Source of the DNA: Frankia sp. AiPa1
GTDB lineage: Bacteria > Actinomycetota > Actinomycetes > Frankiales > Frankiaceae
NCBI RefSeq assembly: GCF_023243075.1
Contig: NZ_JALKFZ020000125.1
Coordinates: 62,001 to 126,000, forward strand
Length of the DNA stretch: 64,000 nucleotides
Reading direction: 5' to 3'
Shown here: in pieces, positions 7,029 through 22,414 of the stretch
Numbering within the stretch: the first letter of the stretch is position 1
Layout: each line of letters begins with the position of its first letter
Made by a program: the position numbers and the translations under genes
Notes under the pieces: model-generated
What the model was told of the DNA's origin: nothing
What the model saw: only the letters and a program-made list of their open reading frames with translations
Databases searched by the model: none

Positions 7029-7736
7029 ATGCCACATGTCCAGGGCACCCAGCCGAGCTGGCCTCAGGCCATTCTGGTGGATTTCTACGGGACGGTCGTC
7101 GAGGAGGACGATCAGCTGATCTCGCAGATCTGCGTCGAGATCAGTGGCACCGCCAGCCAGCAGGTCGATCCGCGCACGGTCAGCGCGTACTGGTCGGCCC
7201 TGTTCTCGGACCTGTGCACGGCGTCCACGGGCCATTCCTTCATCACTCTGCGGACCCTGGAACGCCGGTCTCTCCAGGAGACGATCCGACGCTTCGGATC
7301 GTCAATGGACGAGGAAGCCCTGAGCGGGCGACTGTTCGCGTACTGGCAGCAGCCGACTCTGTTTCCTGACGCCACGGTGCTCCTGACCGAGATCACATGT
7401 CCGGTGTGCATCGTCTCGGACATCGACCGCGCCGACATCGAGGCGGCGATCAGCCAGCTCGGGATCCAGGTCGACCTGGTGGTGACGAGCGAGGACGCCC
7501 GCGCGTACAAGCCACGGCCGGAGCCGTTCCGACTCGCCCTTGGCCTGCTCGGGCTGACACCTGATCAGGTTCTGCACATCGGCGATTCACTGACCTGCGA
7601 CGTGGCCGGAGCCACCTCGCTTGGCATCCCGGCCATCTGGGTGAACCGAACCGGCCGGACCCGCCCGCCGCAGCAACGGATCATCCACGAGGTGCCGGAC
7701 CTGACCCCCGTCGTGGAAATCCTCGCCAGATCGTGA
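7029..7736 (+). CDS. HAD superfamily hydrolase
   Basis: A protein of 235 residues with the four HAD motifs: the nucleophile in LVDFYGTVVEE (D18), VSD near residue 120 (motif II), KPRPEPF near 160 (motif III lysine) and HIGDSLTCDVAGA near 180 (motif IV). The layout matches phosphatase/dehalogenase-type HAD proteins with a helical cap (about 25-100). Motif I has DFYGT in place of DxDGT, as in some dehalogenase-like members. No clear ribosome binding site precedes ATG 7029, so the start is uncertain. The substrate is not predictable. Confidence 0.85.
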   Translation: MPHVQGTQPSWPQAILVDFYGTVVEEDDQLISQICVEISGTASQQVDPRTVSAYWSALFSDLCTASTGHSFITLRTLERRSLQETIRRFGSSMDEEALSGRLFAYWQQPTLFPDATVLLTEITCPVCIVSDIDRADIEAAISQLGIQVDLVVTSEDARAYKPRPEPFRLALGLLGLTPDQVLHIGDSLTCDVAGATSLGIPAIWVNRTGRTRPPQQRIIHEVPDLTPVVEILARS

Positions 7737-8507: not shown

Positions 8508-9179
8508 ATGACCCTACCAACGCTCCGCATACGTACGTCTATCTGTGCGAATCAGACGCATCGAGACGTCAGCGCCTGTGTCGAGGGGGGAGCAGACGCA
8601 ATAGGCGTACTCGTCCAGGTAAAGCACCGGGCCGAGGACGCGGTGGACTTGGCGAAGGCCGTGGAGCTGCTGAGCCGTGTTCCCCCGTATGTGGGTCGAT
8701 ACGCGGTCACGCACGCGACCACTGCCGACGAGATACTCGAGCTCGCCCGGCTGCCCATCGACACCATCCAGCTCCACGGTGATGTGGATCCCGGCGCAAT
8801 TCCCACTCTCCGCAACTCCGCACCACACATACGTCTCCTCAAGGCCGTCCACGTCACTGATGACTCCGCAGCTCCGGCCGGCGAACCATGGAGCTCGCTT
8901 GTAGATGGCCTGGTACTGGACTCGATAAACCTCCCGGAGAACAGAATTGGCGGCACCGGCCGCACCCACGACTGGTCGATCTCCGCAGGAATAGCAAAGG
9001 AGTCACTCATCCCGGTGATCCTTGCGGGAGGTCTCCGCCCGGAAAACGTCGGCGATGCTGTCCGGACAGTCCGACCCTGGGGGGTCAACGTCAACAGCGG
9101 GGTCGAGCAGAACGGAGCCAAAAATCGCGACCTGGTCAAAGGCTTTATATGGAGCGCGAATGCAGATATCCATAGATAG
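8508..9179 (+). CDS. Phosphoribosylanthranilate isomerase-like (TrpF-type) enzyme
   Basis: A protein of 223 residues with a strong GGAGGAGA site before ATG 8508. TrpF hallmarks are present: SICANQTHRDVSACVEGGAD (the catalytic Cys position of the canonical KICG motif), IQLHGD, LVLDS with the Asp, GGTGRTHDWS, ILAGGLRPENV and NVNSGVEQNG followed by KNRDLVKGF. TrpF isomerises N-phosphoribosyl anthranilate in tryptophan synthesis. Here the KICG and VGVF segments are altered, no trp genes are near, and the gene overlaps a membrane protein and precedes a methyltransferase. A specialised-metabolism paralogue is therefore more likely than housekeeping trpF. Confidence 0.75.
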   Translation: MTLPTLRIRTSICANQTHRDVSACVEGGADAIGVLVQVKHRAEDAVDLAKAVELLSRVPPYVGRYAVTHATTADEILELARLPIDTIQLHGDVDPGAIPTLRNSAPHIRLLKAVHVTDDSAAPAGEPWSSLVDGLVLDSINLPENRIGGTGRTHDWSISAGIAKESLIPVILAGGLRPENVGDAVRTVRPWGVNVNSGVEQNGAKNRDLVKGFIWSANADIHR

Positions 9180-10458
9180 AAGGATCGATCTGGCCTGCCG
9201 TTGGCTCGAAGAGGCCGAGTCTCCGGCCGGGGGCTGGGGCTGGGTGGCCGACGTCCTCCCCAACCCGCAGAATACGGCCGAGGTTGTAGTCGCACTCTCG
9301 CACGCAGGGAGGTCAGGCCGGGAACTCGAGCACCTTCTGGATGCACTGGCCGCATGGGAGGTCGTCTGGCCGGACGGCCGGCAATGGGTCTTCGACACGC
9401 CCATCGACCAGGCCTGGCGGCTGCGTGGCCTATGCCGGTTACCGAAGACGCGGACCCGTGATCAGCACATCAGCCGAACGCTTCGAGAGCTGCGAAGAAA
9501 GTTCACCGGGCGCGGCTGGTCCCTCGCGCCCAGCCGCAGCGAGTCCTCGTTCGCGACCGCGGTGGCCCTTGTCGCCGTCGGCGAGGTCTCCGTGCGTGAG
9601 GCGGTACCGGCCCTGGCGCGGCACTACCTGGCGGCCTGGCAGTGGCTCCTGGCAGATCTGAATCATCCCAGCAATCTGGACTGCACCATCGCACATACCT
9701 CCTGGGCGCTACTCGCGCTCTCGGAACCGGCTTTCTCAGAGTGGCGAGACGGCGCCTATCGGCGCGCGGTGAAGGCGGGCCTGCAACGGCTGATCGACGC
9801 GCTGGGCGGCCCGATCCCGGTAGAGGAGGAACAGTTCTCCCGCGGGCCGATCCGCGACAAATGGCGGCACCCCAATCTGGCTGTGGTCATTCAGGCGGTC
9901 CTGCGCATCGAACCCGCACAACTCTTCAATCCCTCGATTCGCCAGAATTTTGGCGAGCTGATGCGGCATCAACGTACCGGAGCCGCAGGCGAAGAGGGAG
10001 CATTTGCCCTTAACGAGGCGGGCCCGGCCACAACCTACTCCACCACGCATGGGATACAGACCATGGTCATGGTGAAGCAGGCATTCGCGCAGGCGTCACC
10101 GGGGGATGTTCTGGAGCTTTTCTGCCGGATCGACGGACGCCACCATACGGATGCCCAGAAGATCGCTCCAGCCTTTGGCGGGAACGCGATCATCATGAAC
10201 AGCACAGCCGGCCTGACCATCGGCATACTGTTCACTTTTGCGATCACGATGTTCGCCGCCTTCATGCTCGGCGGAGTCGTCCTCACCGACATCTCGCGTA
10301 AGGTTCTTGCCTGCGTTCTCATCTATTTTCTCGCGATCGGCTGGTACGGATACCTGGCCGCCCGACTGCCTCACACCCCGAATCGGAACATCGCACTGTC
10401 GATCTACGGCGCCGTCACCGCAGTTGCCCTGCCCATCGTCACATATCTCGTCACCTGA
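9160..10458 (+). CDS. Alpha-toroid (prenyltransferase/squalene-oxidase repeat-like) membrane protein
   Basis: A protein of 432 residues from ATG 9160 (GGAG 5 bases before), overlapping the TrpF-like gene by 20 bases. The first ~340 residues contain repeated helical units with aromatic motifs (GGWGWVADVLPNPQNTAEVV, TPIDQAWRLRGL, DCTIAHTSWALLAL, TTYSTTHGIQTMV) like the alpha/alpha barrels of terpene cyclases and protein prenyltransferase beta subunits. No DXDD motif is evident. Three C-terminal membrane helices follow (about 345-370, 378-400, 410-430). Its role in the operon is unknown; a membrane-anchored toroid could bind a prenyl or other hydrophobic substrate. Confidence 0.6.
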   Translation: MQISIDRRIDLACRWLEEAESPAGGWGWVADVLPNPQNTAEVVVALSHAGRSGRELEHLLDALAAWEVVWPDGRQWVFDTPIDQAWRLRGLCRLPKTRTRDQHISRTLRELRRKFTGRGWSLAPSRSESSFATAVALVAVGEVSVREAVPALARHYLAAWQWLLADLNHPSNLDCTIAHTSWALLALSEPAFSEWRDGAYRRAVKAGLQRLIDALGGPIPVEEEQFSRGPIRDKWRHPNLAVVIQAVLRIEPAQLFNPSIRQNFGELMRHQRTGAAGEEGAFALNEAGPATTYSTTHGIQTMVMVKQAFAQASPGDVLELFCRIDGRHHTDAQKIAPAFGGNAIIMNSTAGLTIGILFTFAITMFAAFMLGGVVLTDISRKVLACVLIYFLAIGWYGYLAARLPHTPNRNIALSIYGAVTAVALPIVTYLVT

Positions 10459-10467
10459 GGTTGCTGT

Positions 10468-11202
10468 ATGTCACTGCTCGAGAGATGGAAAAACCTCGCC
10501 GAGGACTGGTCCGCCTGGGCTCGCGACCCCGACCATGATTTCTATTTCTGGCATTTCAATCTCCCGTCACTCCTGCGGATGGTTCCGCCCGGGGCGAAGC
10601 GGGCACTCGACCTTGGCTGTGGCGAGGGCAGAGTGGGTAGGCACCTGCTCCGGGCCGGAGTCGACGTCGTCGGCCTGGACATCTCCCCACACCTGGTCAG
10701 CAAGGCCATGGACGGGGATCCACCGCTGCGGACGGTCCTCGCGGACGGAACCGACCTTCCGTTTCGGGACGCCGTTTTCGATCTGGTCATCGCCTCGATG
10801 TCCCTCCAGGACATCACCGATGCGCCGGGGGCCATCGCCGAAGCCAGCCGCGTCCTCGCACCCGGCGGCTCCCTGTGCCTCTCAGTCGTCCATCCGCTCT
10901 CCTCATGGCAGGCCATCTCATCCCAGCAGGACCACGCTCGTTCCAGCTACTTCGAGGAGAGGGATTACGACGAACACGTCCACATAGAGAACAGGTCGAT
11001 ACATCTGCACAGCGCGCACCGGACCGTCAGTAGCTATTTCCTGATGCTTACGGACGCCGGCCTCGTATGCGACTACATGGCCGAACCCAGGCCGAGCACC
11101 GCAATAGTGCAGAAGTATCCCGGCCTCGATGACATGCGGAATAATCCACGGTTTCTTCACATCCGGGGCCGCAAGATCGACCTTTCGACGACCGCGGTGT
11201 GA
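10468..11202 (+). CDS. Class I SAM-dependent methyltransferase
   Basis: A protein of 244 residues. Motif I is ALDLGCGEGRVGRHL (about 47-60), then VVGLDISPHLV, the acidic LADGTDLPFRDAVFDLVIASMSLQDI, and VLAPGGSLCLSVVHP, a Methyltransf_11-type fold. It starts 9 bases after the toroid membrane protein, so the three genes very probably form one operon. The acceptor substrate is not identifiable. The C-terminal half has several His/Asp residues (EERDYDEHVHIENRSIHLHSAH). Confidence 0.85.
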   Translation: MSLLERWKNLAEDWSAWARDPDHDFYFWHFNLPSLLRMVPPGAKRALDLGCGEGRVGRHLLRAGVDVVGLDISPHLVSKAMDGDPPLRTVLADGTDLPFRDAVFDLVIASMSLQDITDAPGAIAEASRVLAPGGSLCLSVVHPLSSWQAISSQQDHARSSYFEERDYDEHVHIENRSIHLHSAHRTVSSYFLMLTDAGLVCDYMAEPRPSTAIVQKYPGLDDMRNNPRFLHIRGRKIDLSTTAV

Positions 11203-11299: not shown

Positions 11300-11548
11300 A
11301 TGAACGAGATAGGGCTGCGTGAGGTGCGGCAGAACGCGAGCGAGCTGGTGCGGCGGGCCCAGGCCGGCGAGCGACTGACCATCACCGTCTCCGGTCGACC
11401 GGCAGCCGTTCTCGGTCCTGTAACCCTGCGCGCATGGCGGCGTTGGGACGATCTCGCGGAGGTCTTCGCCCTGCCGGCCGACGCCGACTGGCCCGGCGAT
11501 CGCGAACTCGTCGACAACACCCTGACAGACCCTTGGGAAGATCGATGA
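11300..11548 (+). CDS. Phd/YefM-type antitoxin (VapB-like)
   Basis: A protein of 82 residues with the Phd/YefM start MNEIGLREVRQNASELVRRAQAGE and LTITVSGRPAAVLGPV, the DNA-binding/dimerisation domain, and a C-terminal tail that would wrap the toxin. The stop overlaps the toxin start by four bases (ATGA). Such antitoxins repress their own promoter; a short repeat CGGTAGCACAAGTGCTATCCTG lies just upstream (GATAGCACTTGTGCTA-like symmetry at about 11274-11292). Confidence 0.85.
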   Translation: MNEIGLREVRQNASELVRRAQAGERLTITVSGRPAAVLGPVTLRAWRRWDDLAEVFALPADADWPGDRELVDNTLTDPWEDR

Positions 11549-11928
11549 ATCGTGGCGTCCTCGACACCAGCGTGCTGGTGGCCACCGATGTCCTCCCGAT
11601 CCCCGGCGAACTGGCGGTCAGCGCCATCAGCATCGCCGAACTCCAGTTCGGCGTTCTCGTCGCCAGGACACCCGAGGCCCGCGCGAACCGACTCGCCCGG
11701 CTCAGCGCACTCCAACGACGATTCGACCCGCTCCCGGTAGACGACGCCGTCGCCGACAGCTATGGACGACTGGCCGCCCGAGTCGTCGAAATCGGCCGTC
11801 AGCCACGGGCCCGGACGATGGACCTGCTGATCGCGGCGACGGCGCACGCTCACGGGGCCAGCGTCTACACCCGCAACGCCGCCGACCTCGCCGGCCTCGA
11901 AGATCTCATCACAATCGTGACGGTCTAG
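11545..11928 (+). CDS. PIN-domain toxin (VapC-type)
   Basis: A protein of 127 residues with the PIN acidic residues in GVLDTSVLVA (D near 6), SIAELQFGVL (E near 36), TMDLLIAATA and TRNAADLAGL. VapC toxins are Mg-dependent RNases. It is translationally coupled to the Phd-type antitoxin. A fragment very similar to residues ~75-96 (AARVVEIGRQPRARTMDLL) recurs at 52574-52636. Confidence 0.87.
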   Translation: MNRGVLDTSVLVATDVLPIPGELAVSAISIAELQFGVLVARTPEARANRLARLSALQRRFDPLPVDDAVADSYGRLAARVVEIGRQPRARTMDLLIAATAHAHGASVYTRNAADLAGLEDLITIVTV

Positions 11929-11975
11929 GCTTGGTCCGCGTGCAGTCCAGCCCGGCCGGATTGACCCAGCTCTTG

Positions 11976-12551
11976 TCAGCCGGCCCGCGCCTTGGCGGCG
12001 GCCTTCATCTGCTTCTTGTACTCGCGGACCTTGTCCCGGCTCTGCTGGTCGACGATGTCGGCAACCGAGAGGTAGCTGCCAGCCTCGCCGAAGGGCGCTG
12101 TGGCCTCGCGCCAGCCCGGAGCATCGACGTTGAGCTGCTTGCCGAGCAGCGCCACGAAGATCTTGGCCTTTTGCGTGCCGAAACCGGGCAGCGCCGCGAC
12201 CCGCTTCAGCAGTTCACGCCCATCCTTGGCAGTCGTCCACACCCGGGCGGCGTCACCGTCGTAGCTGTCGACGACGATCTGGCAAAGCTTCTGCGTCCGT
12301 TGCGCCATCGCCGCCGGGAACCGGTGCAGCGCGGGCTGGATCGAGAAGACCGCGGCCAGCTTCTCCGGATCCATCACCGCCAGGTCCGCCGGGTCCAACA
12401 AGCGGCCGAGCCGGCGGGTCAGCTCCAGCGGGGCCGCGAACGCCCGCTCCAGCGGGATCTGCTGATCCAGCACCATCCCGATCAGCAGCGCCAACGGGTC
12501 GTTCGTCAGCAGCTCGTCGGCCTCGTCGATCTGGCTTAGGTGAAGTCCCAC
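11976..12551 (-). CDS. HhH-GPD family base-excision DNA repair protein
   Basis: A protein of 191 residues from GTG 12551. The helix-hairpin-helix is at about 113-137 (LLKRVAALPGFGTQKAKIFVALLG), after a helical GPD-type domain. HhH-GPD proteins are DNA glycosylases, or inactive relatives, of base-excision repair; D143 in NVDAPGW could be the catalytic Asp. This is the only full-length copy in the window. Its first ~31 codons (ending at GMVLDQQ) and upstream bases recur eight more times downstream as partial copies in the same orientation. It appears to be the resident gene at one end of that array. It lies tail to tail with vapC. Confidence 0.85.
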   Translation of the reverse strand: MGLHLSQIDEADELLTNDPLALLIGMVLDQQIPLERAFAAPLELTRRLGRLLDPADLAVMDPEKLAAVFSIQPALHRFPAAMAQRTQKLCQIVVDSYDGDAARVWTTAKDGRELLKRVAALPGFGTQKAKIFVALLGKQLNVDAPGWREATAPFGEAGSYLSVADIVDQQSRDKVREYKKQMKAAAKARAG

Positions 12552-12572
12552 GCGAATACCGTAGTCGGCCGC
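12460..12572 (-). repeat. HhH-GPD 5'-end repeat, copy 1 (within the intact gene)
   Basis: This is the reference copy. It covers the first ~31 codons of the intact gene (to LDQQ) and about 20 upstream bases ending in CCGTAGTCGGCCGC (plus strand). Past LDQQ this copy continues as real glycosylase sequence (IPLERAF), while the other copies turn into a different arm. Confidence 0.9.
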
Positions 12573-12822
12573 AGAGCAGCAGCCGGCGGGCTACCGGTCA
12601 TACGGCCGGAGGGCAACCAGCGAGCACCTGTGGCGGTCGGGCTACCCAACAATGACGGGTCCCGCCGAGCAAGATCGTCACAACCGCCTTCGGATCGCCC
12701 CACCGTGTTCCCGCCGGTCATAGTCCGTCAGCCCCGACTGATCCCGCACTCGGGACGCTGGTGGTGCCGCTCACCGACCCGCAGGCCGTCCGCGAGACGC
12801 TGAACATGCCGCGGACACCCTG

Positions 12823-15800
12823 GTGTCCTTCTGGAACCGTCGCGACCAGGGAGACGAGCTCCACTACGACTTCACCGACCCGACGCTGGACACCGGATTC
12901 CTTGCGGATGTCTACGAGCGGCTCTCCGACTCCAGGCGAAAGGAGCATGCCCTCGTACCCACGCCTGACTTCGTGGCGGATCTCCTGCTCGACCTGACGC
13001 TCGATCCCGCGATCGAGGAGGTGGGACATGAGCATGTTCGGCTGATCGACCGAGTATGCGGCTCCGGGCAGTTCGTTCTGGGCGCCTTCGACCGCCTGTT
13101 CAGCGAGTGGAGCCGGGAGGCGCCTGAGCTTCCCGCAGGTCATCAGGTACGCCACGCCCTGGCAGCGGTGCACGGTGTGGATCTGCTCCCGTCGTCGGTC
13201 GCACTCACCCGATTTCGACTGTTCGTGACCGCGTTGCGCGCCAGTGGGGTTACCGGACCGGTCGATGTGGCGGACCTCGACTGGCCGCTCAACATCAGGG
13301 TCGGTGACTCGCTGCTCGGACCCGAGGGCCCGCGGGCAGACGAGATCGAGCAGACCCACGGGACGGGCTATCACGTTGTCGTAGGGAACCCGCCCTACCT
13401 CACCGTCCGGGATCGGGCCCTCAGCCACCGCCTCCGGGAGCGTTACTACACCTGCAGCGGATCGTTCCCGCTGGCGGTCCCCTACACACAGCGGTTCTTC
13501 CAACTGGCTCGTACGCCTGACGCCAACGGACGGGGCGCGGGCCACGTCGGCATCCTGACCTCGAACTCCTTCACGAAGCGGGAGTTCGGGCGACGGCTGG
13601 CCACGGAGTTCCTCGCCGAAGTGGTGACGCTGACCCACATCCTCGATGCGTCTGGCGCTTACATTCCCGGCCACGGCACCCCGACCGTTCTCCTTGTCGG
13701 CCGAAACCGGCGACCCGACGTGTCGCGGCCCATAGCCGTCGTGCTGGCCGAGCGCGGCGAACCCACACTGCCACCTGTACCTCGTGAGGGGCAGGTATGG
13801 CAGTCGATCCATCGACACGCACGTACGGCCGGCCTCTCCGATCGCTGGACGCGGTCCGTGAGCCTGGATCGGCGTGTCCTTCGCGAGTTTCCGTGGCAGT
13901 TGACCGACAGCACCGCGCGGGCTCTGATCGCCCGCATGTCCAGGCAATCCGTGCTGGGGGACGTCGCTACCCGCATCGGGTATTCGGCCATCACCGGTGC
14001 GGACGACGTCTTCATCGCACCGCCGGACGTCTTCCGCAGACTCGGGCCAGCGGAGGAGGGGGCCCTGGTCCGGATCACCACGGGCTCCGAGGTACGCGAC
14101 TGGGCCGTTCAGACCGACAGGACCGGCTTCTTCCCCCGACACGACGATCACAACGCCGAGGACATTCGCAGCTACCCGCGCATCCATGACCGGCTCTGGC
14201 CCTACCGAACGACCCTGCGGGAGCGCCGTGCCTTCGGCGCCCTGCACCGCGCCTCTGGGCGGCCCTGGTACGACTGGACGCAGATAGCGGCGCGGGCGGG
14301 CAGCGACGGACCCGCGATCATCTTCTCCTGGGTGGCAAGCCACAACCACTTCGCGCTGCAGCGCGGGCGCGTCATCGCGCTGCAGTCGGCGCCGGTCATC
14401 GAGCTTCCGGAGGATTCCACCCGAGCCCGGTACGTCTCCCTGGTCGGGCTCCTCAACAGCTCAGCCGCATGCTTCTGGTTGAAGCAGCACAGCCACAGCA
14501 AGGGATCCGGGCTGAGACAGGAAGGCGGCGGGGAGGCATGGCAGGAGTTCTATGAGTTCACCGGGGCCAGCCTCCGTAGCCTTCCTCTGCCCGATGATTT
14601 CACGACCTGGCAGTCGGGTCTCCTGGATGGGCTCGCTCAGGAGCGGACAGCCTGCGCTCCAGAAGCCGTCTGCGTCCCTGGAGCACCAACCGGGGCACGC
14701 CTGGCCGAGGCCCGACGCCGGTGGGAGAGCATCGGGCGAGAAATGGTCGCGATTCAGGAGGAGCTGGACTGGATGATGTATGCCCGATATGGCATTCTCC
14801 CAGAGCCCGGCGATACTCTTCTCGCTCCGACCGAGAGCATCCCACCGATCAGTCCGGGTGAGCGGGCGTTCGAGATCGTGCTGGCCAGGAGGGTCGCAGC
14901 ACGCGGGGAGAAGACGACCTGGTTCTCCCGCCATAGTTCGGCGCCGATCACCGAGATCCCCGACAGGTGGCCGGCCGCATACCGCGATGTCGTCGCCCGT
15001 CGAGTGGACGCGATCGAACGCAGCGACGATCTGTGCCTGCTGGAGAGGCCGGAGTTCAAGCGCCGGTGGCACAGCGACGGCTGGGACACGATGCAGGCCG
15101 GCGCGATGCGCCGGTGGCTGTTGGACCACTGCGAGACACGGCATCTCTGGTACGAGGATCGCGACGGGCCCCGTCACCCTCGACCACTTGCGATTGGTCG
15201 TCTGGCCAGACTCGTCCTGGCCGACCCCCAGGTGGTCGCGGTCGTGGCGCTCCTTGCGCCCGACCGAGACCCGGCCGAGGTCCTCACCGATCTTCTCGTC
15301 GAGGAGCACGTTCCATGCGCAGCGGCTATGCGGCATACTCCGACGGGTCTCGTGAAGCGGGCTGACTGGGAGATGGTCTGGGCGAACCAGCGCGCAGAGG
15401 ACGCCAGCGAGCCCAGTTTTCAGATGGCATCCATGATGCCACCGAAGTACACATCCGGAGATTTTCTGCGTCCAAGCTACTGGCGAATCCGTGGCAAATT
15501 CGACGTTCCCAACGAGCGTTTCATCTCCTACCCTCCCCTCGACCCACGCATGCCGGACCGAACCCTGATCGGATGGGCAGGCTGGGAAACAGCCGAACGA
15601 GCGCAGGTCCTAGCCGATCTCCTCGCGGCCGACGGGGTGGGTAGCGACCAGCGGTCGCGAAAAACGCCGTTCCTGAATGCCCTGCACGAGCTCCTTCCGT
15701 GGCTGGAAAACGCGTGGGGACAGCCAGGCCCCGCGTGCGAGTCCGCATCAGGCCTTCCATTCACCCAGTACTTCTCCAGGCTCCTTGAGGAAGGCGACGA

Positions 15801-15873
15801 AACCCTGGAGGATCTTCGGGCATGGCGCCCGGAGCCACCTCGTCGAGGAAGACCCCGGAAGATCCGAACTTGA
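12823..15873 (+). CDS. pglX: BREX-2-type PglX adenine methyltransferase, N-terminally truncated
   Basis: A protein of 1016 residues from GTG 12823. The frame is open back to a stop at 12739, giving a few more PglX-like residues (ADTLVSFW). It matches PglX from FTDP..TGFLADVYERLS onward: methyltransferase motif I at about 74-84 (LIDRVCGSGQF, where PglX usually has DPTCGSGHF), VHGVDLLPSSVALTRFRL, NPPY at 189-192, SNSFTKREFG and SGAYIPGHGTPTVLL. It ends in a long specificity/C-terminal region and a basic RRGRPRKIRT tail. PglX methylates adenine in phage-defence BREX-2 systems. The family usually has roughly 200 more N-terminal residues, and PglW, PglY, PglZ and BrxD are absent here. It is probably an orphan, perhaps cut at the repeat boundary. 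Confidence 0.8.
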   Translation: MSFWNRRDQGDELHYDFTDPTLDTGFLADVYERLSDSRRKEHALVPTPDFVADLLLDLTLDPAIEEVGHEHVRLIDRVCGSGQFVLGAFDRLFSEWSREAPELPAGHQVRHALAAVHGVDLLPSSVALTRFRLFVTALRASGVTGPVDVADLDWPLNIRVGDSLLGPEGPRADEIEQTHGTGYHVVVGNPPYLTVRDRALSHRLRERYYTCSGSFPLAVPYTQRFFQLARTPDANGRGAGHVGILTSNSFTKREFGRRLATEFLAEVVTLTHILDASGAYIPGHGTPTVLLVGRNRRPDVSRPIAVVLAERGEPTLPPVPREGQVWQSIHRHARTAGLSDRWTRSVSLDRRVLREFPWQLTDSTARALIARMSRQSVLGDVATRIGYSAITGADDVFIAPPDVFRRLGPAEEGALVRITTGSEVRDWAVQTDRTGFFPRHDDHNAEDIRSYPRIHDRLWPYRTTLRERRAFGALHRASGRPWYDWTQIAARAGSDGPAIIFSWVASHNHFALQRGRVIALQSAPVIELPEDSTRARYVSLVGLLNSSAACFWLKQHSHSKGSGLRQEGGGEAWQEFYEFTGASLRSLPLPDDFTTWQSGLLDGLAQERTACAPEAVCVPGAPTGARLAEARRRWESIGREMVAIQEELDWMMYARYGILPEPGDTLLAPTESIPPISPGERAFEIVLARRVAARGEKTTWFSRHSSAPITEIPDRWPAAYRDVVARRVDAIERSDDLCLLERPEFKRRWHSDGWDTMQAGAMRRWLLDHCETRHLWYEDRDGPRHPRPLAIGRLARLVLADPQVVAVVALLAPDRDPAEVLTDLLVEEHVPCAAAMRHTPTGLVKRADWEMVWANQRAEDASEPSFQMASMMPPKYTSGDFLRPSYWRIRGKFDVPNERFISYPPLDPRMPDRTLIGWAGWETAERAQVLADLLAADGVGSDQRSRKTPFLNALHELLPWLENAWGQPGPACESASGLPFTQYFSRLLEEGDETLEDLRAWRPEPPRRGRPRKIRT

Positions 15874-18883: not shown

Positions 18884-20070
18884 CTAGCCGCCGTGGTGCG
18901 ATGGATCAGCCAGTCGCCACAGCGCGTTCCGGGATCGGGGCGCCCCTACCAACTCGGCCTGCCCGATCCGACGCAACCGCGCGAGCGTCTGGCGAGCTTG
19001 CTCGTCGGTAAGACCGGCCTGGCGAGCGATCTCGGCGCGGCTGACCGGTGTCCTGGTCAACACGGCCAGCACAAGGTCATTCTGTGTCCGGCCGCGGTCG
19101 AGCTGCTTCGTTGCCCGGCCGGCGTGGGGACTCAGCCGGTAGGTGGCGCCTCCCCGGTCTCCTTCCTGCACCAGCAAGCCGCGTGCGCGCAGTTCTTTGA
19201 GCTGCGTGGTCGCGGTTCGACTGTCCGCGACGCCGGTCGCACCCCGGTAGCTGACGTTGGTCAAGGTCTCCCCGCGTCGAGTGAGCGCCAGCGCGGTGAG
19301 CTGCGCACCCGTGAGTCCGGCGACGTTCAGCGTGGACAACCAGTCCCTGGTGTCCTCGTCGAGCAGCGCGTGATTGGGGATTGTGACGGTGAAGGTCGCG
19401 ATGTCGTCCTCGAAGACCGGTGGCTCCATGCCCGCCTCAGCGAGCGCCGCCCGGACACGCGCGATACCGGTGCCTCGGTTCTCGCACACTGTCCGGCCCG
19501 GATCAAGCGGGGTATCCTCCAGGATCTTGAGCAGGACAGAATTGCGCGATGACGGTGGCACTGTGCCGAGTCCAAGCTCTCGTAGACCCACTGGCCCGAA
19601 GAGTCCGCCCGGGTTCCGGATCTGCAATCGGTCAGGGTAGAGCTCTACCTGAATCTGGGCACCCTGGGCCGACGGTGAGTAGTCGCGGTGTACCAGACTG
19701 TTCACCAGAGTCTCCCGGAGCACCTCCTCGGGATACTCCCATTCATCAACGCGGAACAGTCCGGTGATAATGCCGCGCCGTTTCATGTGTCGTTTCAGGA
19801 TTCCTATAACATCGCGGACGATCACAGGTATCGGACCGTCTACGGAACGGTTATCCAGAAACCGCTCCCCGCGCGGCCCTGGCCGGGCCGGATCGGGCGT
19901 CGGGAAGACGACCACCGTGGCGTTCAGTTGCGGAAAGTACTGCTGCGGATAAATTCCGAATGCTACGACTGGGGCATGCCGCCCCTGGCCTTCTTGATCT
20001 CAAACTGATAGTTGTCGTTGCCGAGCCGAGCCAGGTCGCCGATCGTACGGGCCACTGTCTCGCGGTCCAT
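18884..20070 (-). pseudogene. AlbA_2 / RecG-like ATP-binding regulator, internal deletion
   Basis: It starts at ATG 20070 with MDRETVARTIGDLARLGN then YQFEIKKARGGMPQS, the beginning of an AlbA_2 domain, and hits a stop. It resumes at about 19962 in another frame with YPQQYFPQLNATVVVFPTPD. The rest is intact: WEYPEEVLRETLVNSLVHRDYSP (ATPase-like N motif), LQIRNPGGLFGPV, RGTGIARVR and C-terminal winged helices. Compared with the related gene at 20600-22414, about 200 codons are missing at the junction. The 3' part alone could still make a 343-residue protein from an internal start. Confidence 0.7.
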
Positions 20071-20270
20071 GACTCCCCATCAGGATGCCTTCAACGCATC
20101 AGGATGCAATCTTGGTACCACTCGGGCCGACTACCATGACCGACTACCATGAGCCCGATCCCGGCCCAGAGCGGGCATCCGCATGTTGGTGGGGACAACG
20201 GAGTCCGGTGACCGCCAGCCCGGCCAGACATCACGGCTCGGAGCCTGGGCCTACGACACCATTTCGCTCG

Positions 20271-20378
20271 TTCTTTCCGATATCCGCTGGTCCAGGACCA
20301 TGCCAACGAGGAGGGCAAGCGGGTCGTTGGTCAGCGGTTCGTCGGCCTCGTCGATCTGGCGCAGGTGCAGTCCCACGG
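20271..20378 (-). repeat. HhH-GPD 5'-end repeat, copy 4 (most diverged)
   Basis: Translated on the minus strand it reads GLHLRQIDEADEPLTNDP, ALLVGMVLDQ, RISERTSEMVS. It retains the TTCTTTCCGATA boundary on the left. The upstream part loses similarity right after GTCCCACG. Confidence 0.85.
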
Positions 20379-20599
20379 TCGATTTCCCTTCGGTAGCAAG
20401 CCAGACTCCCCGATCGTGCCCTGACGGGCGACAGTCGCCGGCTCGCCTACCCGCCCAAGGCCAATCACGGGCGGACGCACCCGGCTCCGCGTCAGCACCC
20501 GAGCACTGACACGTGGCGCGCCTAACGGAGCCTAGCAAGATCCCGAGAGCATTACAACATCGTGTTAGGCTTGCGTCAGGCTCTCTGGGAGGCTTCGGC

Positions 20600-22414
20600 A
20601 TGGACGCGGACGGGCTGGCCGAGATCGTTGTCTCGCTTCGCCGGATCGGTCGGGACGACGCAGGTCTCGAGGTCAAGCTGGCGTCGACCGACAAGTTGCC
20701 CAGTGAGACCATGCAGACACTATGCGCATTTGCGAACACTCCGGGCGGCGGCATCCTGATCTTGGGCCTCGACGAGGCGCGCGGGTTCGCGGCGACTGGC
20801 TGCGAGCATGCCGCGAAGCTCGCCGCCGACCTCGCGGGGCTGTGTCGGGACGGCCTCGTTCCGCCGCTCATGCCTCTGATCAGCCTTCCGGAGTTCGAGG
20901 ACCGGACCCTTGTCGTCGCCGAGGTACCGGAGCTCGACCCGGCAGACAAGCCCTGTTATCTCCGGGGCAAAGGGCAGCCAAACGGCTCGTACATCCGCAT
21001 CTCGGATGGGGATCATCGACTTACGTCGTACGAAGTAAGCCAACTGTTGATCAACCGAGGCCAGCCGAATTTCGACATGGAACCCGTCGAAGAAGCAGGC
21101 AGAGTCGATCTGCACGACGAACTCGTCGCGGACTATCTGCGGGACCTTCGCCGGTCCCGACCATCCTTGGCCCGCCGGGACGACGAAGATCTGCTTCGCC
21201 GCTGCGGAGTGCTGGTAAAGAGTGCGCTGGATGACCAGAGGCTCGTGCCGTCGCTGGGCGGACTGCTCGCACTGGGCCGGGATCCACAGGGTTTCGACTC
21301 ACTGCGCGGATGCGCGATCGCGGTGACCGCGTACCCTACACCCCGCAAGGGGGAGCCCGGTCCAGACGGCCAGCGATTCCTGGACGACAAGATACTTGAA
21401 GGCCCGGCGCCGACTCTTCTCGCAGAGGTCTTTGACGTTCTGTACGCCCGCATGAGCCGACGTGGAATAGTGGCGGGGATCGGCCGGGAAGATCGCTGGG
21501 AGTATCCGCTGGAGGCCCTTCGGGAGATTTTGGTAAATGCCGTGGCCCACCGGGACTACAGTCCAATGTCCCGGGGGACGCGCATCCATGTGGAGATGTA
21601 CCCCGATCGCCTTGAGGTAATTTCACCGGGCGGGCTCTTCGGGCCCGTCACCATCGACCGGCTAGGAGACGAGAGCATCGCATCCGCTCGTAACCGGGTT
21701 CTCGTCGACATCCTCGAGAATGTTCGTTTCCACCGCGATAAAAGGGCCCTGTGCGAGGGGCGGGCGACCGGTATTCCCACGGTTCTAAACAGCCTGCGCC
21801 AAGCTGGGCTCGTACCCCCGAGGTTCAAGGACAACATAAGCGACTTCCGAGTTATCATGCCAAACAGGACCTTGCTCGACGAGAGCACCCGGGCCTGGCT
21901 ACACTCGCTGGGTCAGCCGGGCATCTCTCCGACACAGGAAATGGCCCTTGCGGTGTTTCGGACTGGCCGGGCACTGACGAGCGATGAGTACCGCATCGAA
22001 CTCGCGGTAGACAGCAAGGTCGCTCGTCGAGAGCTGGGGGATCTTGTCCAACGAGGTCTGGTCAGAATGGTCAATCAGCGCCGATGGGCAAGGTACGTCC
22101 TTGATGACACGGCCGAGGATTCACACCCGACTCTTTTCTCTGAGCTCCTTGAGCACGAGCCGCGTCACCAACACGCGAGAGCCGTCCGCAACAAGGAAAT
22201 TCGTGAATCCGCCACACGGAAACAACGTGTTCTGGAACTCCTGGCCGTCGAGTCACCCCTGACCCGCGCGGAGATCGCCGTCCGCCTTTCCTTGGGCGAT
22301 CGGCAGGTTAGTTATGAGCTGACCAAGCTGATCGCCGAGGGACTGGTCGCCAGAACAACCGAAGCCTACAGCGACCCGAATGCCGCGTACCGCCTCACGA
22401 GCCCGCCGGCATGA
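20600..22414 (+). CDS. AlbA_2 domain / RecG-like ATP-binding transcriptional regulator
   Basis: A protein of 604 residues from ATG 20600 (GGGAGG 8 bases before; a 29-residue upstream extension has no site). The AlbA_2 domain is at about 1-130 (MQTLCAFANTPGGGILILGLDE). The middle region has WEYPLEALREILVNAVAHRDYSP and LEVISPGGLFGPV, followed by RATGIPTVL, as in RecG-C-like/GHKL-type ATP-binding proteins. Two C-terminal winged-helix units follow (about 440-500 and 540-600, LTRAEIAVRLSLGDRQVSYEL). Such proteins are annotated as putative DNA-binding regulators; the function is unproven. It is the intact relative of the broken gene at 18884-20070. Confidence 0.82.
   Translation: MDADGLAEIVVSLRRIGRDDAGLEVKLASTDKLPSETMQTLCAFANTPGGGILILGLDEARGFAATGCEHAAKLAADLAGLCRDGLVPPLMPLISLPEFEDRTLVVAEVPELDPADKPCYLRGKGQPNGSYIRISDGDHRLTSYEVSQLLINRGQPNFDMEPVEEAGRVDLHDELVADYLRDLRRSRPSLARRDDEDLLRRCGVLVKSALDDQRLVPSLGGLLALGRDPQGFDSLRGCAIAVTAYPTPRKGEPGPDGQRFLDDKILEGPAPTLLAEVFDVLYARMSRRGIVAGIGREDRWEYPLEALREILVNAVAHRDYSPMSRGTRIHVEMYPDRLEVISPGGLFGPVTIDRLGDESIASARNRVLVDILENVRFHRDKRALCEGRATGIPTVLNSLRQAGLVPPRFKDNISDFRVIMPNRTLLDESTRAWLHSLGQPGISPTQEMALAVFRTGRALTSDEYRIELAVDSKVARRELGDLVQRGLVRMVNQRRWARYVLDDTAEDSHPTLFSELLEHEPRHQHARAVRNKEIRESATRKQRVLELLAVESPLTRAEIAVRLSLGDRQVSYELTKLIAEGLVARTTEAYSDPNAAYRLTSPPA

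Follow-up and report, generated by a model that had tools for sequence, protein, structure and literature searches.

The locus examined here raises the question of what a short operon does in Frankia sp. AiPa1, when it joins a relative of phosphoribosylanthranilate (PRA) isomerase (TrpF), a membrane protein with a terpene-cyclase-like fold and a methyltransferase. The window, that is the whole stretch of DNA that was analysed, comprises 64,000 nucleotides of this genome. The original prediction described the three genes as a tightly coupled operon of a small biosynthetic pathway that could not be matched to a known one. We found no description of a module of TrpF-like and toroid genes in the literature searched either, and no known pathway fits it.

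Organization and conservation of the operon

As predicted, three open reading frames occupy positions 8508-11202 on the forward strand. The gene for a putative (beta/alpha)8 isomerase of the TrpF type (8508..9179, +) is followed by that for a membrane toroid protein (9160..10458, +), which starts at the ATG at 9160 with GGAG just upstream, and the two coding sequences overlap by 20 bases (9160..9179, +). The toroid stop codon ends at 10458, and after a 9-base gap a class I SAM-dependent methyltransferase gene begins with the ATG at 10468 (10468..11202, +). The gene order and the 20-base overlap are identical in Frankia sp. R82, where the TrpF-like, toroid and methyltransferase proteins are 84, 88 and 86% identical to those of the window. 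The dN/dS values between the two Frankia copies were 0.19, 0.10 and 0.14, respectively. This indicates that all three genes are real and under purifying selection (omega 0.10-0.19). The coupling of the three genes exceeds chance, since their order and overlap are kept in Frankia R82, an 11-base overlap is found in Nesterenkonia alba, and the dN/dS values are low. The GC content of the operon (62.9% vs. 68.3% for the window) is among the lowest 2% of equal-sized stretches, which fits acquisition. A HAD hydrolase gene lying upstream (7029-7736) was considered as a pathway phosphatase and rejected, as nothing equivalent lies close to the pair in relatives, including Frankia R82.

TrpF-like protein

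The first gene product matched the PRAI family (PF00697) at 1.1e-29, well over the Pfam cut-off. Its best NCBIfam score was 125 bits, compared with 215 bits for the TrpF equivalog cut-off, and it stayed under all cut-offs of this kind. The structural model (pLDDT 85.7) was most similar to TrpF of T. maritima (1nsj), with Z of 26.0, 2.0 Å over 202 residues and 30% identity, and other barrels scored lower. The barrel anticipated in the original prediction was thus borne out. Cys7 and Asp126 of the T. maritima enzyme, which we take to be the base and the acid of catalysis, correspond to Cys13 and Asp138 of the window protein. Both residues are kept, as are the phosphate loops.

The difference lies in the column of T. 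maritima Arg36, which is Arg in the three canonical TrpF sequences aligned and Asp in every member of the TrpF-like clade (Asp44 in the window protein); Arg36 and Asp44 were matched by a sequence alignment that spans a two-residue insertion. This insertion, near the Arg36 position, produces an H-x2-E-D loop in most clade members. In simulations, the arginine (R36) was essential for introducing TrpF activity and shielded the charge around the anthranilate carboxylate, and R36 itself seldom touched PRA (PMC9088769). The best-supported biochemical claim for this operon, as read from the alignment, is that the TrpF-like enzyme probably has an altered specificity, which agrees with the altered PRA isomerase of the original prediction. 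In the tree, canonical TrpF is separate from the TrpF-like sequences of Frankia and Nesterenkonia, which form one group (100/99), and long branches leave the deeper joins unsure.

Several other TrpF homologues were observed. The genome of the window carries a second TrpF-like gene (L009:7793-8557; G000:C5), which is 73% identical to the first and has no toroid gene adjacent to it. A further homologue, present at three loci (L077-L079, e.g., L078:7066-13968), has Ala at the Cys7 position and Asp at the Arg36 position. Its gene is coupled to one for uracil phosphoribosyltransferase, and after these come a single-module NRPS containing a tautomerase domain and a gene resembling indigoidine synthase A. 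This locus resembles the minimycin cluster (PMC8724604), and TrpF seems to have been drawn into specialised metabolism here on a separate occasion. A third, more divergent PF00697 set, consisting of two short stretches in the same frame, occurs in many Nocardia genomes (e.g., G805, G783 and G770).

Relation to tryptophan synthesis

No trp genes were recognised near the operon among the window ORFs that were scanned, as originally predicted. The genome encodes PriA, which scored over the TIGR01919 cut-off; tryptophan synthesis should therefore not need the TrpF-like gene of the window. The original prediction had named, as telling against it, the case that this gene were the only trpF of its genome; it is not the only trpF-like gene there, for the 73% identical paralogue exists, and PriA is present. 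The trpF gene is missing from most Actinomycetota genomes, with PriA compensating (PMC13055916), and PF00697 had no match in 48 of the 150 Nocardia genomes. The module of TrpF-like and toroid genes is probably part of an uncharacterised pathway rather than of tryptophan synthesis.

Membrane toroid protein

The AlphaFold2 model of the second protein (pLDDT 79.4, low at ~320-350) has an alpha/alpha toroid at residues 1-314. Together with hydropathy, it places three C-terminal membrane helices at about 349-431, in accordance with the terpene-cyclase-like membrane toroid first proposed. The nearest folds were squalene-hopene cyclase (2sqc, Z 25.9 over 271 residues) and MstE (Z 22.0). Cellobiose 2-epimerases and GH76 enzymes were close behind (Z 22-23), and GH76 was at the top of the Foldseek list. 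The window protein alone gave no Pfam match, and its NCBIfam match was sub-threshold. When 40 relatives were compared with Pfam, 14 of them weakly matched Prenyltrans and 10 weakly matched SQHop_cyclase_C (best 0.0019). These signals, weak as they are, would favour the squalene-cyclase/prenyltransferase superfamily.

No conserved columns corresponding to the DxDD acid motif were found in the 40 toroid sequences, in which a single invariant Asp83 remains. The other invariant residues are W26, W28, D31, N35, P36, Q37, E41, F78, W86 and R89 in the first part of the protein, and E224, W235, H237, C322, H328, D331 and N347 further on. The invariant N-P-Q was considered as a replacement of DxDD and rejected, as hhalign aligns it with a different helix of squalene-hopene cyclase; the helix order of the toroid puts P-I-D83 nearer to DxDD than N-P-Q. 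Toroid paralogues without an adjacent TrpF-like gene were seen in Nocardia (L100:5301-6680 and L101:5477-6778), the latter with N-A-M-S where others have N-P-Q-N. A link to hopanoid side-chain synthesis was dropped, as linked genes were absent and, to our knowledge, Nocardia is not a hopanoid maker.

Distribution and genomic contexts

Among the 12 other Frankia genomes searched, the toroid gene was present in one. A pattern scan of about 85,000 species yielded 54 toroid loci, in Frankia R82, Nesterenkonia alba and Nocardia. The genome-neighbourhood search that had been suggested as a check showed that in 45 of these 54 loci, and likewise in the window, a TrpF-like gene and the toroid gene are no more than about 2 kb apart. 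In Nesterenkonia alba, the TrpF-like gene precedes the toroid gene, with the 11-base overlap mentioned above, and a divergent methyltransferase (~26-31% identity) accompanies them. Most Nocardia loci show a convergent arrangement of the TrpF-like and toroid genes, the latter followed by an EamA permease gene whose start often overlaps the toroid stop. The neighbours of the toroid loci include PlsC-like genes in 16 loci (Nocardia) and a GT9 gene in 8, with other sites elsewhere, and the pair occurs in at least three genomic contexts. Phylum-wide searches with a single toroid sequence and with a profile (396 genomes each) gave no convincing relative outside Frankia and Nocardia. One match (G089; 2e-7) spans 82 positions, and a 31% match in G023 lies within an integrase-like ORF and was discarded as a false positive. 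The toroid searches found no relatives in plasmids or viral contigs.

Co-occurrence was analysed in 150 Nocardia genomes, of which 55 have full-length or near-full toroid matches; in 47 of these 55, the toroid gene has a PF00697 gene no more than 4 kb away. TrpF-like genes (bit score 60-116) were separated by score from canonical-type TrpF (over 116). The presence of the former is associated with that of the toroid (48/7/21/74 for both, toroid only, TrpF-like only and neither; odds ratio 24, Fisher p 3e-15, shared ancestry uncorrected), whereas canonical-type TrpF shows no association (p 0.67, likewise uncorrected for shared ancestry). The partnership is strong but not obligatory, because about 21 Nocardia genomes carry TrpF-like genes of the same clade but no toroid, toroid paralogues are found that lack TrpF, and the toroid gene of the Nocardia genome G809 is in pieces. 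The first two findings also mean that the two proteins need not share a pathway. In G809 (L098), as in G868 (L099), also a Nocardia, the fragmented toroid gene stands beside an apparently intact TrpF-like gene, which suggests a separate function for the TrpF-like protein.

Methyltransferase and permease

The product of the third gene matched Methyltransf_11 at 1.1e-21 and contains a SAM-binding motif of the GxGxG type (LDLGCGEGR), as expected of the predicted SAM methyltransferase. It is kept in Frankia R82 and, distantly, in Nesterenkonia alba, and the family is common elsewhere: relatives at 1e-25 were present in 69 of 148 Nocardia genomes. None of these relatives stands beside the TrpF-like/toroid pair in the Nocardia loci, and the EamA permease is found there instead. 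The methyltransferase was therefore rejected as a core member, its family being common in Nocardia yet never beside the pair. Most likely, the methyltransferase and the permease are interchangeable accessories, and methylation and export would be variable end steps.

Given the variation of the third gene, the locus is better described as a core of two genes to which exchangeable accessories are added than as the three-enzyme operon of the original prediction. The TrpF-like/toroid pair is the conserved unit. Variation of the other genes in homologous loci had also been named as evidence against that prediction; it was found for the third gene, while the toroid gene stays linked to the TrpF-like gene in most loci.

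Proposed pathway

We tentatively favour the reading that the operon supplies the two core proteins, TrpF-like enzyme and membrane toroid, of an uncharacterised pathway, either of biosynthesis or of modification, which has travelled as a cassette. It is quite possible, though by no means assured, that this core combines an Amadori-type isomerase for a substrate other than the anthranilate compound with a membrane-anchored cyclase-fold protein for a lipid-linked intermediate, served by interchangeable accessories. Because its catalytic residues and phosphate loops are retained, the TrpF-like enzyme would act on a phosphoribosyl amine: with the Cys/Asp pair and the phosphate loops, it may convert an N-(5-phosphoribosyl) amine, or a compound much like it, by an aldose-ketose isomerisation. 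The aglycone would not be anthranilate, as the anthranilate-linked arginine is now Asp in a His/Glu/Asp loop. The fold and the membrane anchor of the toroid suggest that its substrate is a lipid or an isoprenoid. Three helices would hold the protein in the membrane, and its terpene-cyclase-type cavity, which lacks DxDD, may bind or process a lipid- or isoprenoid-linked intermediate. The accessories would then finish the product, by the methyltransferase in Frankia and Nesterenkonia and by the EamA permease, presumably an exporter, in Nocardia. All of these proteins would act in one pathway and in this order, and the product may be sugar- or prenyl-linked, as first suggested. The main gap is that no genes making the N-phosphoribosyl amine or the isoprenoid substrate were found linked to the module.

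A more specific version is that TrpF enzymes of a neofunctionalised clade act as isomerases of a new N-(5-phosphoribosyl) amine and hand it on to the membrane-anchored, DxDD-less protein of terpene-cyclase fold. The outcome in Frankia, Nocardia and Nesterenkonia would be ribulosyl- or isoprenoid-linked metabolites of a class not known before. We regard this version as rather speculative and would not expect it to hold in full. Most actinomycetes have lost trpF because PriA covers its step; a separate TrpF clade with the specificity arginine changed to aspartate looks like natural enzyme repurposing. Its partner, a cyclase-fold toroid with membrane helices and without DxDD, has no Pfam assignment. 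Together, the two proteins mark a pathway that may be missed by genome-mining tools keyed to known core enzymes.

Alternative explanations

The toroid could instead be a catalytically active class II cyclase of a single domain, comparable to MstE, that makes terpenes or meroterpenoids. Asp83, with which the second inner helix starts, would be the general acid, and the product would be a methylated or exported terpenoid to which the TrpF-like enzyme supplies another part. The squalene-hopene cyclases as best fold matches, the Z of 22 to MstE and the invariance of Asp83 in 40 sequences argue for it; we nevertheless consider it unlikely, given that a conserved DxDD is absent, that Ile or Val precedes Asp83 and that no isoprenoid synthase is linked. 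The similarity to cellobiose 2-epimerases and GH76, first in the Foldseek list, and the invariance of W235, H237, E224 and R89 would also accord with a role in sugar conversion, the alpha/alpha barrel being similar to an epimerase or a glycosidase and acting on the sugar isomerised by the TrpF-like enzyme. Both the highest structural Z and the sequence signals, though weak, indicate the prenyltransferase/squalene-cyclase superfamily, and such a sugar-active role appears very improbable.

The TrpF-like protein might also be a working PRA isomerase gained by transfer as a tryptophan backup to PriA, with the toroid beside it by accident. The retained fold, Cys7, Asp126, phosphate loops and high PF00697 score are what such an enzyme would have. 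Asp at the Arg36 position across the whole clade, a score under all TrpF equivalog cut-offs and a strong linkage to the toroid that holds in several genera and contexts and is absent for canonical-type TrpF make this distinctly unlikely. The surroundings raise another alternative. A Phd/YefM antitoxin and PIN toxin pair and a 1016-aa Eco57I/DUF7008 protein like BREX PglX are encoded at 11300-15873, and two HATPase_c_4 proteins, one with a Schlafen AlbA_2 domain, on opposite strands at 18887-22411. No further BREX genes were recognised with the PglX-like gene among the window ORFs scanned. The Phd/PIN pair and PglX-like methylase, the low GC content and the patchy distribution could mean that the module serves conflict or defence, as a mobile cassette within a genomic island, and is not a biosynthetic unit. 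PADLOC gave no match to the two core proteins, and the matches of the third gene, to two models (best mad2, 3.8e-18), were confined to their methyltransferase stretch. The long-standing position next to core genes such as PlsC, seen in 16 Nocardia loci, the kept catalytic residues of a metabolic-type isomerase and the failure to find a viral copy render a defence role highly doubtful.

Comparison with known systems

The two-protein core has partial counterparts in known systems. With TrpF of T. maritima (1nsj/1lbm), the window protein shares the barrel fold, the catalytic Cys and Asp and the phosphate loops; it differs in the Asp at the Arg36 position, the two-residue insertion with its H-x2-E-D loop, the sub-cut-off score and a location away from trp genes. 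PriA, a bifunctional HisA/TrpF enzyme, carries the PRA isomerase activity in most actinomycetes and is present in the window genome, but it belongs to PF00977, lies in the his locus and is not the window gene. Squalene-hopene cyclase and MstE have the same alpha/alpha toroid fold as the second protein, which differs in the lack of DxDD, in its single toroid domain with three C-terminal membrane helices and in having no Pfam assignment. AdeK, a PriA homologue of the adechlorin cluster, belongs to the HisA/PriA family and is located in a nucleoside-antibiotic cluster, and the text of its paper does not name Frankia, Nocardia or Nesterenkonia (PMC13055916). As is proposed here for the TrpF-like protein, it is an actinomycete phosphoribosyl isomerase of His/Trp synthesis that has been recruited out of primary metabolism (PMC13055916).
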